Assembly: GCF_002261355.1 (NCBI RefSeq)
Contig: NZ_NEVU01000003.1
Coordinates: forward strand, 744,001-808,000
Source of the DNA: Bordetella genomosp. 12
Lineage (GTDB): Bacteria; Pseudomonadota; Gammaproteobacteria; Burkholderiales; Burkholderiaceae_B
DNA length: 64,000 nt
Direction of reading: 5' to 3'
Shown here: in pieces, positions 1,796 to 33,130 of the stretch
Numbering within the stretch: position 1 is the stretch's first letter
How the letters are laid out: each line of letters opens with the position of its first letter
Made by a program: the position numbers and the translations under genes
Notes under the pieces: generated by a model
Told to the model about the DNA's origin: nothing
The model's input: only the letters and a program-made list of their open reading frames with translations
The model's database searches: none

Positions 1796-3178
1796 TCAAT
1801 CGGCAAAACGCAGCCGCGCGAAGCTGGCGATGCTGGCCAGCGCGGCAAAGATCACGCCCAGCCACAAGGCCCAGGCCGTGCCTCCCACGCCCGCCATGTG
1901 CAGGCAGGCCGCCACCAGCGCCGCGCCCGAAGACTGGCCCAGCAAGCGCACCGTACCCACCATCCCGCTGGCCCCGCCCGCCCTGCCGGGCGGGGCGGCG
2001 CCGATGATGGCACGCAGATTGGGCGACTGAAAAAATCCGAAGCCTGCGCCGCACAGCGCCATGCGCCAGCAAATATCCCAGACCGACGGTTGTGCCGGCA
2101 GGGTCGCCATGGTGAGCATGCCCAGCGCGAGCACGGCCAGGCCCACACCGCCCAACAGACCGGCCGAATAATGATCCGACATCCGGCCCGCGATCAAGGC
2201 CATCATGGCCACCACGACGGGCCAGGGCGTAATCAGAAAGCCGGTCTCGACCTGGGAATAGCCCAGCACTTGCTGCAGCATGAAGGGCAACGATACGAAA
2301 GCCAGGGCCTGCGTCGCGAATGCACAGACCGCCGTGGCGGCCGACAACGCAAAAATGGGCCGGCGCAGCAGGTCCACGGCAAGGATGGGCGCGGGATGAC
2401 CGGCCTGCCGGTACAAGAGCAGCAGCAGGCACACCGCGGCCACGGCCAATTCCACGGCCACGCGCCAGGCGGGCACGTAATGCGCGGCCTCGCTCAAGCC
2501 CAGCACCAGAAAGGACAGAAAGCCGGCGCACAACAAGCCCGCGCGCCACTCGAAGCGATGGCCCGAGCGCGCCGTCGCGGGCAGACCTCGCAGCGACAGC
2601 ATCAGCGCAAGCAGGCCGACCGGCACGTTGATCAGAAACAGCCAGTGCCAGGAGCCATAAGCCAATATCACCGAGGCGAGCGTGGGCCCGGCGGCAAACG
2701 ACAAGCCGACCACCAGCGCATTGGTGCCCAGGCCGCGCCCCAGCGCATGCGAGGGATAGATAAAACGCACGAGCGCCCCGTTGACCCCCATCAGTCCCGC
2801 GGCGCCCAGACCCTGCAGAACCCGCGCGGCCACCAGCACGGGCAGCGAGGGCGCCAGGCCACAGGCCAGCGACGACAGAATGAAAACGATCAGGCCGACG
2901 AGATAGACCCGGCGATGACCAAACACATCGCCCATCGCGGCGGCCGGCAACAAGGCGGCCACCATCGCCAACTGATAAGCACTGATCACCCAGATCGACG
3001 CGGATTCGGTGGCGTTGATCTCGCGTGCGATGGTGGGCAAGGCGGTGTTGGCAATGGCCGTATCCAGGCTGGCCATGCAGACGGCCAGCATAACGGCCAC
3101 CATCGCGCCGAGCCGTTCGGATTGCGGAACCCCGGCGCCGGCCGGATAGACTTCATTGCGGGAGAAGGTCAACAACAT
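1796..3178 (-). CDS. MFS transporter, DHA2 (EmrB/QacA-type) drug efflux
   Basis: A polytopic membrane protein of about 460 residues with long hydrophobic helices throughout. The N-terminal half carries the DHA2 signatures: ASLDTAIANTALPTIARE in TM1, WVISAYQLAMVA in TM2, GDVFGHRRVYLVG in the 2-3 loop, and the motif-C-like GPTLASVIL in TM5. The family exports toxic organic compounds using proton motive force; the substrate cannot be read from sequence. The frame can be extended to a TTG at 3202; I chose the ATG at 3178, but no strong ribosome site is visible and a start further in (MVAVMLAV) is possible. It is transcribed divergently from the DUF1348 gene across about 125 bp. Confidence 0.85.
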   Translation of the reverse strand: MLLTFSRNEVYPAGAGVPQSERLGAMVAVMLAVCMASLDTAIANTALPTIAREINATESASIWVISAYQLAMVAALLPAAAMGDVFGHRRVYLVGLIVFILSSLACGLAPSLPVLVAARVLQGLGAAGLMGVNGALVRFIYPSHALGRGLGTNALVVGLSFAAGPTLASVILAYGSWHWLFLINVPVGLLALMLSLRGLPATARSGHRFEWRAGLLCAGFLSFLVLGLSEAAHYVPAWRVAVELAVAAVCLLLLLYRQAGHPAPILAVDLLRRPIFALSAATAVCAFATQALAFVSLPFMLQQVLGYSQVETGFLITPWPVVVAMMALIAGRMSDHYSAGLLGGVGLAVLALGMLTMATLPAQPSVWDICWRMALCGAGFGFFQSPNLRAIIGAAPPGRAGGASGMVGTVRLLGQSSGAALVAACLHMAGVGGTAWALWLGVIFAALASIASFARLRFAD

Positions 3179-3302
3179 GGCAGCGGAGAAGGCGACGTCC
3201 AAGTCTTATATATGAGTTGGCCTTCACTATACTGCCAACATCCCCCCGCCGCGAATCGCGGCTGACAGGCCGCTGTCTTGCCTTCAACGATGAGGATCAA
3301 CC

Positions 3303-30458: not shown

Positions 30459-30528
30459 ACCCATGCATTGAGCCCTCATCGCCACGGGTCTACACTGGGT
30501 TTCCCGTCAACCCCGGAGCACGCCTTTC

Positions 30529-31077
30529 ATGAGCAACCTCAATATCGCGGTTTTCGTCGGCAGCCTGCGCGCCGAGTCCATCAACCTGCGCCTGGCCCGC
30601 GCGCTGGAAAAGCTCGTCCCTGCCCACGTGAAGTTCCACTTCGTGGATTTGAACGTGCCGTTGTTCAATCAGGATCTCGAGAACGACATGCCTGCCGCGG
30701 CCGCCAAGCTCAAGCAGCACATCAAGGATGCCCAGGGCGTGTTGTTCGTGACGCCGGAACACAACCGCTCCATCCCGGCAGCGCTGAAAAACGCGATCGA
30801 CTGGGGGACCCGGCCCTGGGGGCAGAATGTGTGGATAGGCAAAGCCGGCGGCATCGTCGGGACCTCACCTAGCGCCGCGGGCACGGCCATGGCGCAACAG
30901 CATCTGCGCAATATCCTCGCCGCCGAGGGCGTCAATGTGCTGACGACACCCGAAGTCTTCCTGCAGATGAAGGACGGCCTGATCAACGATCAGTACCAGA
31001 TCACCAACGAAGACACCCGCAAGTTTCTTCAGGGTTGGCTGGACCGCTATGTCGAGTGGGTCGGCAAGTCCGCCTGA
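30529..31077 (+). CDS. NADPH-dependent FMN reductase / quinone reductase (ChrR-like)
   Basis: A 182-residue flavodoxin-fold protein. Phosphate-binding loop VGSLRAESINLRLA, the isoalloxazine-side motif VTPEHNRSIPAALKNAIDW and GTSPSAAGTAMAQQHLRNIL. This family reduces quinones, azo dyes or chromate with FMN. The ATG follows GGAGCACGCCTTTC. It is 70 bp after hpxZ on the same strand, but no functional link is evident. Its transcript runs into the repeat array, whose first hairpin may act as a terminator. Confidence 0.9.
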   Translation: MSNLNIAVFVGSLRAESINLRLARALEKLVPAHVKFHFVDLNVPLFNQDLENDMPAAAAKLKQHIKDAQGVLFVTPEHNRSIPAALKNAIDWGTRPWGQNVWIGKAGGIVGTSPSAAGTAMAQQHLRNILAAEGVNVLTTPEVFLQMKDGLINDQYQITNEDTRKFLQGWLDRYVEWVGKSA

Positions 31078-31089
31078 CGGGCTACGCCA

Positions 31090-31110
31090 GCCGCCGCCTG
31101 GCGCGGCGGC
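31090..31110 (+). terminator. GC hairpin at the head of the repeat array
   Basis: GCCGCCGC-CTGGC-GCGGCGGC followed by TTTAT, 13 bp after the FMN-reductase stop. It could terminate that gene, but an equivalent hairpin with the same TTTATCCCC follow-on occurs at module 6, so it may be part of the repeat unit. Confidence 0.5.
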
Positions 31111-31920
31111 TTTATCCCCGCCCAATGTGGAAAAGCTTGAGGACAGCCTGCTGGCACTCGGCGATTCCTAAGCCATATCAATGACTTGAGGCGGGTGATC
31201 AACATCTGACCAAAACCTCATCCACGGCCTTAAGTTGTCCCCGCATTTTGTGGATAAGCATGAGGAAAGCTTGCCCACATCCCAAAAAAACCCTTGCAGA
31301 TCATTGGACTAAGGTCCTTCGTTCGAAAAAGGAGCAGACCCGGGTAAACCCGCAAGGCCGTGCAAAGGTGCCCTGGACGCCGGCGCGCCCGCCGGGGAGT
31401 TATCCCCTGCTGATGTGGACAAGACACTTGATAGCTCGCGCACAAACCAGAAATACGTAGACGGATCAATCGCTTGCGCACACTGGGCAAAAAATGCCCA
31501 CCCCGCCTTTGCAGGCACTGCCAGGCGCTGCCATCGCCTCAGGTTTATCCCCTGCCAGTGTGGACAAACCCCTTGATAGCTCGCGCACAAGCCCGAAAAC
31601 GCCATAGGCTTCAAGTGCTTGCGAGCGGCGGTCACGAATTGCCCACGGCATGGGGCGGACAGAACGCCGCTCAGACACGGCGCCTTCGCGGGGATTTATC
31701 CCCGTGCAATGTGGACAAGGTATTGAACAGCTTTGGGGCAAACCCGAAAAACCCATATGGGCCGGGCACTTGCGAGGAGCGGTCAAATATTGCCCACCCC
31801 GCACGGCCGGGCCGCCGCGCCAAGGCGCGGCGGTTTATCCCCGCGAAATGTGGACAAACACTTGCACAGATGTCGGACAAAGACAAAATCGCCTTGCCTG
31901 ACAAGGACTTGCGACGGCCG
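31090..31920. repeat. Six-module degenerate tandem repeat with DnaA-box-like inverted pairs
   Basis: An 830-bp gene-free array. Six modules, spaced 123, 165, 145, 151 and 139 bp, each contain the 23-bp core TTRTCCCC-N6-TGTGGANAA. Core starts are 31112, 31235, 31400, 31545, 31696 and 31835, and the core spacing never varies. The right half is close to the DnaA box in opposite orientation; module 2 has the exact box TGTGGATAA. Modules share weaker elements: a CTTGA..AGCTCGCGCACAA-type stretch (best in 3 and 4), ACTTGCGA-GGAGCGGTCA and TTGCCCACCCCGC. Modules 1 and 6 are preceded by perfect GC hairpins (31090-31110 and 31812-31833). No frame looks coding. Confidence 0.88.
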
Positions 31921-31941
31921 ATCAGAAAGTGATCAGCACCC

Positions 31942-32160
31942 TCACTCGTCTTCGAGCCGCATGCCCAGTTTCAAGCCCACTTGCCAATGCGCGACCTTGC
32001 CATCCTTGATATGGCCACGCACCTCGGTCACCTCGAACCAATCCAGATGGCGCAAAGAACGCGATGCGCGCTCGATGGCCTGTTTGATGGCGTCATCACT
32101 GGAGACGGGCGAAGACCCCACCAGTTCGATCTGCTTATACACATGAGCTTTCTTGGACAT
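31942..32160 (-). CDS. Dodecin family flavin-binding protein
   Basis: A 72-residue protein: MSKKAHVYKQIELVGSSPVS, then DDAIKQAIERASRSLRHLDW and EVTEVRGHIKDGKVAHWQVG. This is the full dodecin fold, a dodecameric flavin store, with the conserved Trp and Gln that stack the isoalloxazine rings (HWQVGLKLG). GGAGATC precedes two adjacent ATGs (32163 and 32160); spacing favours the second. It is transcribed away from the LysR gene and ends at the edge of the repeat array. Confidence 0.93.
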   Translation of the reverse strand: MSKKAHVYKQIELVGSSPVSSDDAIKQAIERASRSLRHLDWFEVTEVRGHIKDGKVAHWQVGLKLGMRLEDE

Positions 32161-32227
32161 CATGATCTCCTTACAGCGTGTGAACCCCATTGAACCACGC
32201 CCCAAGCAGCCCGGCCAACCGGCGCGC

Positions 32228-33130
32228 TCAGGCCGTTGCGGCAAAACGCGCCGCCAGAAAATCGCGCAGGCGGCGCACCGCGGGAGACAGGCGTGAACGC
32301 TCCACACACAGCAAGTAAACCGGGCTGCGCTCGCCCTGATAATCCGGCAGGGCCGCGACCAGCCGCCCTGCCCGCAGATCGTCGGCCACGTCGAAATAGG
32401 ATTTATAGGCCAGGCCATCACCGGCCAGCGCCCATCGCCTGACCACGTCACCGTCGTCGGCGGCCCTATCTCCCGACACGGCGATCTCGCTCATCTGCCC
32501 GTCGCGCTCAAAGCGCCAGCGATCATGCGGCGCATCGCTGAGCATGAAAGTCAGGCAATTATGTTGGCGCAGATCCTCGGGCGTGCGCGGCATCCCGCAA
32601 CGGGCGAAGTAGTCGGGCGCCGCGCACAGCACGCGGCGGTTGTCCGGCGCCAAGGGCAAGGCAATCATGCTGGAATCCTCGGGTTCCCCATAGCGGATCG
32701 CGATATCCACCCCTTGGCGATGCAGATCCGTCAGGCGGTCACTGATGCGGACCTGCAAGCGGATGCGCGGATGCTCACGCTGAAATGCATCCAGCCAGGG
32801 CAGGAGCATGTGCCGCCCGAGATCCGAGGGCATGGACAGCGACAGCGTGCCGGCGATCGAATGACGGTCACGCTGCACCGACCCGCGACCGGCCTCCAGC
32901 GCAGCCAGCGCCGCGTGGGCGTGGTCACGATAGCGCTCGCCTTCGGCGGTCAGCCGCAAGCTGCGGGTCGAGCGTACGAAGAGCCGCACACCGAGAGTGT
33001 CTTCCAGCCGCTTGACTGCCGCACTGGCCACCGCGGGCGTCAACCCCAGCTCGCGCGCGGCGGCGGAAAAACTCCCCGCCGCCGCCGCGGAGACGAAAAT
33101 ACGCAGGTCTTCCACGCGCTCTGCGGCCAT
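32228..33130 (-). CDS. LysR-family transcriptional regulator
   Basis: A 300-residue regulator. The N-terminal winged helix is LRIFVSAAAAGSFSAAAREL, then TPAVASAAVKRLEDTLGVRL and FVRSTRSLRLTAEGERY; the substrate-binding domain follows (GTLSLSMPSDLGRHMLLPWL). The ATG at 33130 follows AAAGGA at 9-base spacing; an upstream frame extension is not LysR-like. Divergent from the zinc-independent quinone oxidoreductase gene 98 bp away, which it probably controls in answer to an electrophile or quinone. Confidence 0.93.
   Translation of the reverse strand: MAAERVEDLRIFVSAAAAGSFSAAARELGLTPAVASAAVKRLEDTLGVRLFVRSTRSLRLTAEGERYRDHAHAALAALEAGRGSVQRDRHSIAGTLSLSMPSDLGRHMLLPWLDAFQREHPRIRLQVRISDRLTDLHRQGVDIAIRYGEPEDSSMIALPLAPDNRRVLCAAPDYFARCGMPRTPEDLRQHNCLTFMLSDAPHDRWRFERDGQMSEIAVSGDRAADDGDVVRRWALAGDGLAYKSYFDVADDLRAGRLVAALPDYQGERSPVYLLCVERSRLSPAVRRLRDFLAARFAATA

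Follow-up and report, generated by a model that had tools for sequence, protein, structure and literature searches.

An array of six DnaA-box-like inverted pairs, held in strict register in a gene-free stretch of a Bordetella chromosome, raises the question of what such a locus is for. An earlier note on this DNA had described six exact cores with an invariant 14-bp register in a non-coding gap, and this description was confirmed by a pattern scan of the window (the whole stretch of DNA analyzed, 64 kb) and by shuffled controls. The pattern TTRTCCCC-N6-TGTGGANAA matched exactly at six places in the window, all on the plus strand, with starts at 31112, 31235, 31400, 31545, 31696 and 31835; the last core ends at 31857, and successive starts lie 123, 165, 145, 151 and 139 bp apart. 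At up to three mismatches, 11 matches were found in the window (the six sites on the plus strand and five of these again on the minus strand) versus 0.24 expected, a number that was reached in none of 100 shuffles of the window. The core is not scattered genome-wide, a possibility raised earlier: the whole 4.5-Mb genome holds seven exact cores, the six of the array and one at parE, and a backwards-pattern control gave no match in the whole genome. The array lies in a gap of 864 bp (31078-31941) between two genes, both outside the element:

30529..31077, plus strand: flanking gene, NADPH-dependent FMN reductase (PF03358, E = 4.2e-37; synteny)
31942..32163, minus strand: flanking gene, dodecin (PF07311, E = 3.4e-29; synteny; start at 32163 assigned by us)

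Rfam models gave no match at E up to 1 in the interval 30500-32600. A coding array was ruled out by stop codons in all six frames across 31090-31935 (4 to 10) and by core spacings that differ between species by non-multiples of three. The caveat concerns tblastn, in which the longest chance open reading frame of the array (152 aa) matched the DNA of relatives at 7/7 loci, with E down to 1e-30 and 36 to 53% identity for the best match per locus. Internal stops interrupt six of these seven best matches (that at L076 is free of them), and most loci were matched at several repeated places, a pattern that is as expected of repeated non-coding DNA.

To describe the repeated unit, 75 modules from 15 genomes were aligned gapless from the core. 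Four loci with one to three cores and neither flanking gene (L082, L088, L089 and L090, from G019, G030, G025 and G035, respectively) were left out. Modules were collected by the core pattern alone; core columns 1-8 and 15-23 are therefore conserved by construction and only columns 24-100 are independent, and since the 75 modules are related by descent the counts given below are not 75 independent events. Conserved columns reach position 100, with peaks past the core at 30-35, 43-46, 52-55 (an A-tract), 68-76 and 86-100. Thus, the repeat seen earlier is real, but its conserved part is longer than the core and extends to about position 100. Little is conserved upstream: over the 25 bases preceding the modules, information content stays at or below 0.20 bits per column, apart from 0.44 at -2. 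The perfect GC hairpins noted earlier before the first and last modules therefore do not seem to belong to the element, and the FMN-reductase gene probably has its terminator in the first of them. The resulting unit of about 100 bp consists of a forward box I, a reversed box II at +14, a weak reversed box III a further 12 bp on, an IHF consensus at 65 and a Fis consensus at 86. The six modules of the window are:

Module 1, 31112..31211, plus strand: box I 31112-31120 (forward), box II 31126-31134 (reversed), weak box III position 31138-31146 (reversed); predicted sites: IHF consensus 31176-31188 (0 mismatches), Fis consensus 31197-31211 (0 mismatches); profile R1 66.1 bits
Module 2, 31235..31334, plus strand: box I 31235-31243, box II 31249-31257 (exact TTATCCACA reversed), box III 31261-31269 (2 mismatches); predicted sites: IHF position 31299-31311 poor (3 mismatches), Fis consensus absent at 31320-31334 (4 mismatches); R1 56 bits
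Module 3, 31400..31499, plus strand: box I 31400-31408, box II 31414-31422, box III position 31426-31434; predicted sites: IHF 31464-31476 (1 mismatch), Fis 31485-31499 (0 mismatches); R1 72.1 bits
Module 4, 31545..31644, plus strand: box I 31545-31553, box II 31559-31567, box III position 31571-31579; predicted sites: IHF 31609-31621 (2 mismatches), Fis 31630-31644 (0 mismatches); R1 69.1 bits
Module 5, 31696..31795, plus strand: box I 31696-31704, box II 31710-31718, box III position 31722-31730; predicted sites: IHF position 31760-31772 unmatched (5 mismatches), Fis 31781-31795 (0 mismatches); R1 69.6 bits
Module 6, 31835..31934, plus strand: box I 31835-31843, box II 31849-31857, box III position 31861-31869; predicted sites: IHF 31899-31911 (2 mismatches), Fis 31920-31934 (0 mismatches); R1 68.9 bits

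Within the window, the IHF consensus (up to 2 mismatches) is thus present in 4/6 modules and the Fis consensus is exact in 5/6. A short palindrome in module 5, CGGGGATTTATCCCCG (window 31689-31704), overlaps box I.

Box I occurs among the 75 modules as TTATCCCC (49 modules), TTGTCCCC (12), TTATCCAC (10), TTTTCCAC (3) and TTATCCCA (1), with CCCC in place of CCAC in 61/75. Past the core, the best of 94 combinations of offset and strand for a DnaA box was offset 27, reversed (box III, 27-35), with a mean of 3.51 mismatches versus 5.8 for the median combination. Box III is nevertheless weak in the arrays, with at most one mismatch in 0/75 modules and at most three in 41/75; a possible weak fourth box, also reversed, was seen at offset 38 (mean 4.01 mismatches). 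The IHF consensus WATCAANNNNTTR at offset 65 (65-77) was matched with at most one mismatch in 27/75 modules and with at most two in 53/75, as compared to 0.014% and 0.34% at other offsets, and shuffling of each module left about 5/75 with up to two mismatches inside positions 58-76. The Fis consensus GNNYANNNNNTRNNC at offset 86 (86-100) was exact in 45/75 modules and within one mismatch in 68/75 (other offsets, 0.014% and 1.4%), and the match has an A/T-rich center. Offset 30 ranked second for Fis, with 26/75 modules within one mismatch and none exact. As the modules were collected by the core alone, the IHF and Fis positions constitute independent evidence. The genome encodes DnaA, and Hda, IHF alpha and IHF beta all score above their cut-offs. 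A Fis homologue (38% identity) falls below the NCBIfam cut-offs (112.5 vs 122 and 74.8 vs 99); its gene directly follows a dihydrouridine-synthase gene, and the order in E. coli is dusB-fis. Layout, fixed spacings and the genes for DnaA, IHF and Fis are thus matters of observation.

The same holds for conservation. The exact core was found in 25 of 61 genomes searched, own genome included, and arrays of at least three cores were detected in 14 of 18 fetched loci (scan at up to 2 mismatches), each with 3 to 7 modules. These 14 relatives comprise 11 of 14 from the same genus together with G017, G023 and G029; in the three remaining same-genus relatives, G008 (73% complete), G012 (77%) and G013 (99%), the exact core was not found. 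The FMN-reductase gene adjoins the array in 13/14 relatives and the dodecin gene in 12/14, so that the synteny proposed for checking is kept on both sides in 11/14 and on at least one side in 14/14. Modules 1-6 pair reciprocally, one to one, with modules 1-6 of G005 and of G001 over columns 24-100 (65 to 82% identity), while modules within the array itself are on average 51% alike (39 to 68%). The units are therefore kept individually among close relatives. Pairing was partial with G014 and G002, and no orderly pairing was seen with G003, G006, G017 and G010. The earlier idea that DnaA boxes cluster here, outside oriC, and that selection acts on their geometry is supported.

A relaxed two-core scan of named genomes returned 36 stretches, including Bordetella trematum, B. 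hinzii, B. pseudohinzii and B. genomospecies 1, 2 and 5, as well as Candidimonas, Castellaniella, Pollutimonas, Pusillimonas and Eoetvoesiella. Matches in Ktedonobacteria, one Moraxella and one Bacilli MAG were set aside, as the profile fits mainly their first 23 to 60 positions, with weak scores. Two Ktedonobacter (Chloroflexota) records contain 13 and 14 pairs of the form TTATCCAC-N6-TGKGGANAA (L045:3266-4563 and L064:3009-4326), often 73 or 83 bases apart and upstream of a DNA primase (dnaG) gene. Within these two 8-kb stretches no DnaA gene was found by tblastn and a box III at +12 was not evident; the pairs are possibly an independent DnaA-box array.

We consider the array to be, most probably, a tandemly multiplied, compact locus of the DARS2 type, that is, one that reactivates DnaA. 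We infer binding by DnaA, IHF and Fis, release of ADP and an effect on initiation. In each module, boxes I and II would be occupied by two DnaA molecules facing each other head to head, with a further DnaA on the weak box III behind box II. IHF would bend the DNA just downstream of the core and Fis would bind beyond. Such a complex would release ADP from DnaA, the apo-DnaA would reload with ATP, and the reloaded DnaA would promote initiation at the distant oriC. Several modules may multiply the recharging capacity, and IHF and Fis may make that capacity depend on growth phase and on the stage of the cell cycle, a control reported for E. coli DARS2.

Pure titration would require less of the site. 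In that case the array would act as a sink, binding DnaA at about 18 box positions and thereby delaying initiation, with no exchange of nucleotide. Many boxes stand in one place and no fixed spacing exists between modules, as would suit a sink, and DnaA titration is reported for the E. coli chromosome in a paper of 2025 (available text of PMC12371093). However, for a sink there would be no need of opposed pairs in one register, or of fixed positions for the IHF and Fis consensus sites, and boxes I and III of the array depart from the consensus. We therefore regard titration as unlikely; it would become the chief rival if box III proved dispensable or unbound.

Regarding chromosomal position, the distance between gidA and the array amounts to 26% (G002), 26% (G007), 34% (G014) and 27% (G019) of the chromosome in four single-contig genomes, and that between dnaA and the array to 26%, 42%, 33% and 28%, respectively; in G019 the distance was measured from a pair of cores. 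The separation of dnaA and gidA is 648 kb in G007 and 24 to 38 kb in G002, G014 and G019. An oriC candidate, recognized by sequence only, was located beside gidA on contig C3, not on the contig of the array. It combines a cluster of DnaA boxes (variants TTGTCCACA, CTATCCACA and TTATCCACA) with palindromes: four copies of TGTTTCACGTGAAACA / TGTTCCACGTGGAACA stand beside gidA at L131:7020-7250 (G000 C3), and we take them to be parS-like. GC skew keeps its sign across the array, where 4-kb windows have 63 to 64% GC. The array shares DnaA boxes and IHF consensus sites with an origin, and for this reason a secondary or unrecognized origin may be thought of. Given the oriC candidate beside gidA, the distance of the array from gidA and dnaA and the constant sign of the skew, we dismissed the array as oriC, in agreement with the earlier note, and give next to no credence to a secondary origin.

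Further cores of the same register bear on whether DnaA is the protein concerned. An opposed DnaA-box-like pair is found at parE (L007:1501-1523, G000 C2:50816-50838) and at 13 other loci among L008-L036. The loci had been selected by the core itself. Where parE was found as well (14 loci), the pair stops one base short of its predicted start codon in 12 and lies somewhat further off in two. The gap between xseA and a MotA/TolQ/ExbB-family gene contains a single plain DARS1-like core (L118:2812, G000 C2:640811, and L120, L122, L124, L126 and L128), with 0 to 1 mismatches in box I, 0 in box II and 0 to 1 in box III in 6/6 genomes; an IHF consensus at the module position was not found in these six genomes.

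A sequence-only profile built on the 100-bp module gave eight matches in the own genome, the six of the array and two about 2.5 kb apart on contig C1:

G000 C1:165389-165478 and C1:162834-162917 (L119), minus strand: second module locus, found by the profile; counterparts L121, L123, L125 and L129 have one or two modules

One of the two matches borders a gene region that in G002 includes a GntR/MocR-type regulator; in G000 a beta-lactamase-family gene lies near this second locus. Among the matches listed for 151 genomes of the own family, 77 genomes match at E up to 1e-6, with 1 to 8 matches per genome, and at least 37 have three or more, not all in tandem. At E up to 1e-3 the profile matches 76 of 399 Burkholderiales genomes; 68 of the 76 belong to other families, with one or two matches each, most near threshold. 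Across 369 genomes of the class, six match at E up to 1e-5, own included. The profile thus finds candidate sites in other Burkholderiales.

The other families were examined at the 12 best-scoring loci out of the 68 matching genomes, which is not a random draw; 11 were usable, L159 being dropped as its boxes I and II missed the cut, and L154, L155 and L157 were left out as members of the own family. These loci are single modules with better third boxes than the arrays. The best position was again offset 27, reversed, with a mean of 1.45 mismatches, at most one mismatch in 7/11 and at most three in 11/11. Both the matches and the strand used for this mean were taken from a profile in which box III is among the columns, and some ascertainment remains; the third boxes are better than the profile's own. 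Picking the strand from boxes I and II alone failed because the two are nearly symmetric, and offset 27 reversed then came third best with a mean of 4.91. The IHF consensus at offset 65 was within two mismatches in 3/11 modules. The Fis consensus at offset 86 was exact in 2/11 and within one mismatch in 5/11, offset 30 scoring better on average. The simplest history that we infer is one ancestral module, multiplied in the own family.

These sites weigh on an alternative offered by the earlier note, an array for an unknown dimeric protein. The array would be a row of operators for a regulator that recognizes a site similar to two opposed DnaA boxes and that also acts on parE, and the pair placed one base before the parE start in 12/14 core-bearing loci would fit such a regulator. 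The proposal is weakened because the 11 other-family modules have good DnaA boxes at three positions; sites of the same geometry in the xseA gap likewise have good boxes in 6/6 genomes, and the oriC candidate uses the variants given above. We consider a dimeric regulator very improbable. Returning to the DARS2-type reading, a fuller version of it would see in the group of Bordetella, Castellaniella and Candidimonas one recharging site that has become a tandem bank of three to seven IHF/Fis-gated units whose number sets the rate of recharging, and in the same DnaA pair at the parE start a link between topoisomerase IV synthesis and the DnaA cycle. This extension is tentative, and we give it slightly less than even credence.

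If the DARS2-type reading is true, the array would be a multi-copy control site for the timing of chromosome copying. As copy number, the strength of the boxes and IHF/Fis spacing vary naturally, comparisons could help to test what a DARS complex needs and whether more units mean more recharging. Fis and the DARS2 core are described as conserved specifically in gamma-proteobacteria related to E. coli (available text of PMC4245941), DARS conservation is given elsewhere as extending to beta or gamma relatives (PMC5742627, in part), and DARS-like sequences are mentioned for many proteobacteria (PMC10380432, in part). DARS outside E. coli is therefore not itself new. By titles and the beginnings of abstracts, our searches of the open-access literature turned up no report of DARS or such arrays in Bordetella or Alcaligenaceae, and a complete predicted core-IHF-Fis unit of only 100 bp in tandem appears to be new as far as our searches show.

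Comparison with E. coli was based on 17 kb in total around DARS1, DARS2 and datA and on a strict triad cut (boxes I and II with at most 3 mismatches, box III with at most 2). One triad was counted at DARS1, two in the DARS2 region and none at datA, with a mean of 0.000 in 40 Markov shuffles each; a looser cut added two minus-strand matches in the same rppH-mutH gap of the DARS2 region. DnaA ChIP peaks are listed over double boxes (PMC11317965, in the part available), and both DARS2 triads fall on such boxes. Only module 2 of the six window modules passes the strict cut that DARS1 and DARS2 pass; the other five fail because boxes I and III of the array are weak. The DARS1 core (L138) has box I at 1608 (forward), box II at 1622 and box III at 1634 (both reversed), i.e., +14 and +12, and thus shares spacing and orientation with the window modules, but it is single in E. 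coli, whereas the modules stand in tandem. DARS1 is described as active in vitro without added factors, and in both DARS box I is stated to oppose boxes II and III at equal spacing (available text of PMC5742627).

The earlier note had taken datA as the closest model. Its broader claim, a DnaA-based control of replication, is probably right in class, but DARS fits better than datA. A datA-like locus would stimulate ATP hydrolysis by DnaA in an IHF-dependent manner and lower initiation; like datA, the array is a cluster of DnaA boxes with IHF sites outside oriC, and boxes II, III and the possible weak fourth box point one way. As described in the available text of PMC5742627, however, the essential datA boxes share one orientation, datA lies near oriC, and one IHF site but no Fis site is named for it. 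Boxes I and II are opposed in every module, the one-way arrangement of essential boxes with IHF between them was not found, the triad was absent from E. coli datA, and the array is 26 to 34% of the chromosome away from gidA in the four single-contig genomes. Consequently, identity with datA was rejected and a datA-like activity seems quite improbable.

DARS2 remains the closest counterpart. In its first core (L139) the core at 3136 is followed by IHF matches at 3229 and 3245 (1 mismatch each), which stand 3 bp apart downstream of that core, and by an exact Fis match at 3281; the rest of the DARS2 gap contains two more IHF matches with 1 mismatch. The downstream sites are named IBS1-2 and FBS2-3, and DARS2 was less active once its IHF sites had been shifted by 5 or 10 bp (both from the available text of PMC4245941). 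DnaA on the opposed boxes I and II is reported to interact head to head and to release ADP (PMC8682772 and PMC10380432, in part). Against the DARS2-type reading stand the weak boxes I and III, the lack of an IHF or a Fis consensus in single modules, the weak IHF and Fis matches in other families, the three same-genus relatives with no exact core and a spacing that departs from DARS2: from box I, IHF lies at 65 in the modules versus 110 in DARS2 and Fis at 86 versus 146, that is, 45 and 60 bp nearer. Boxes I and III are stronger in DARS2, and the flanking genes differ. By our computation, from coordinates in the available text of PMC11317965, DARS2 lies at about 21% and DARS1 at about 33% of the chromosome from oriC. 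DARS2 and the window array are thus both away from oriC, both are non-coding, and they share opposed boxes I and II at +14, a box III position 12 bp on that is weakly matched in the array, then an IHF and then a Fis consensus, in the same order and on the same side. While DARS2 is one locus of 455 bp in E. coli, the Bordetella-group unit measures about 100 bp and is repeated 3 to 7 times.
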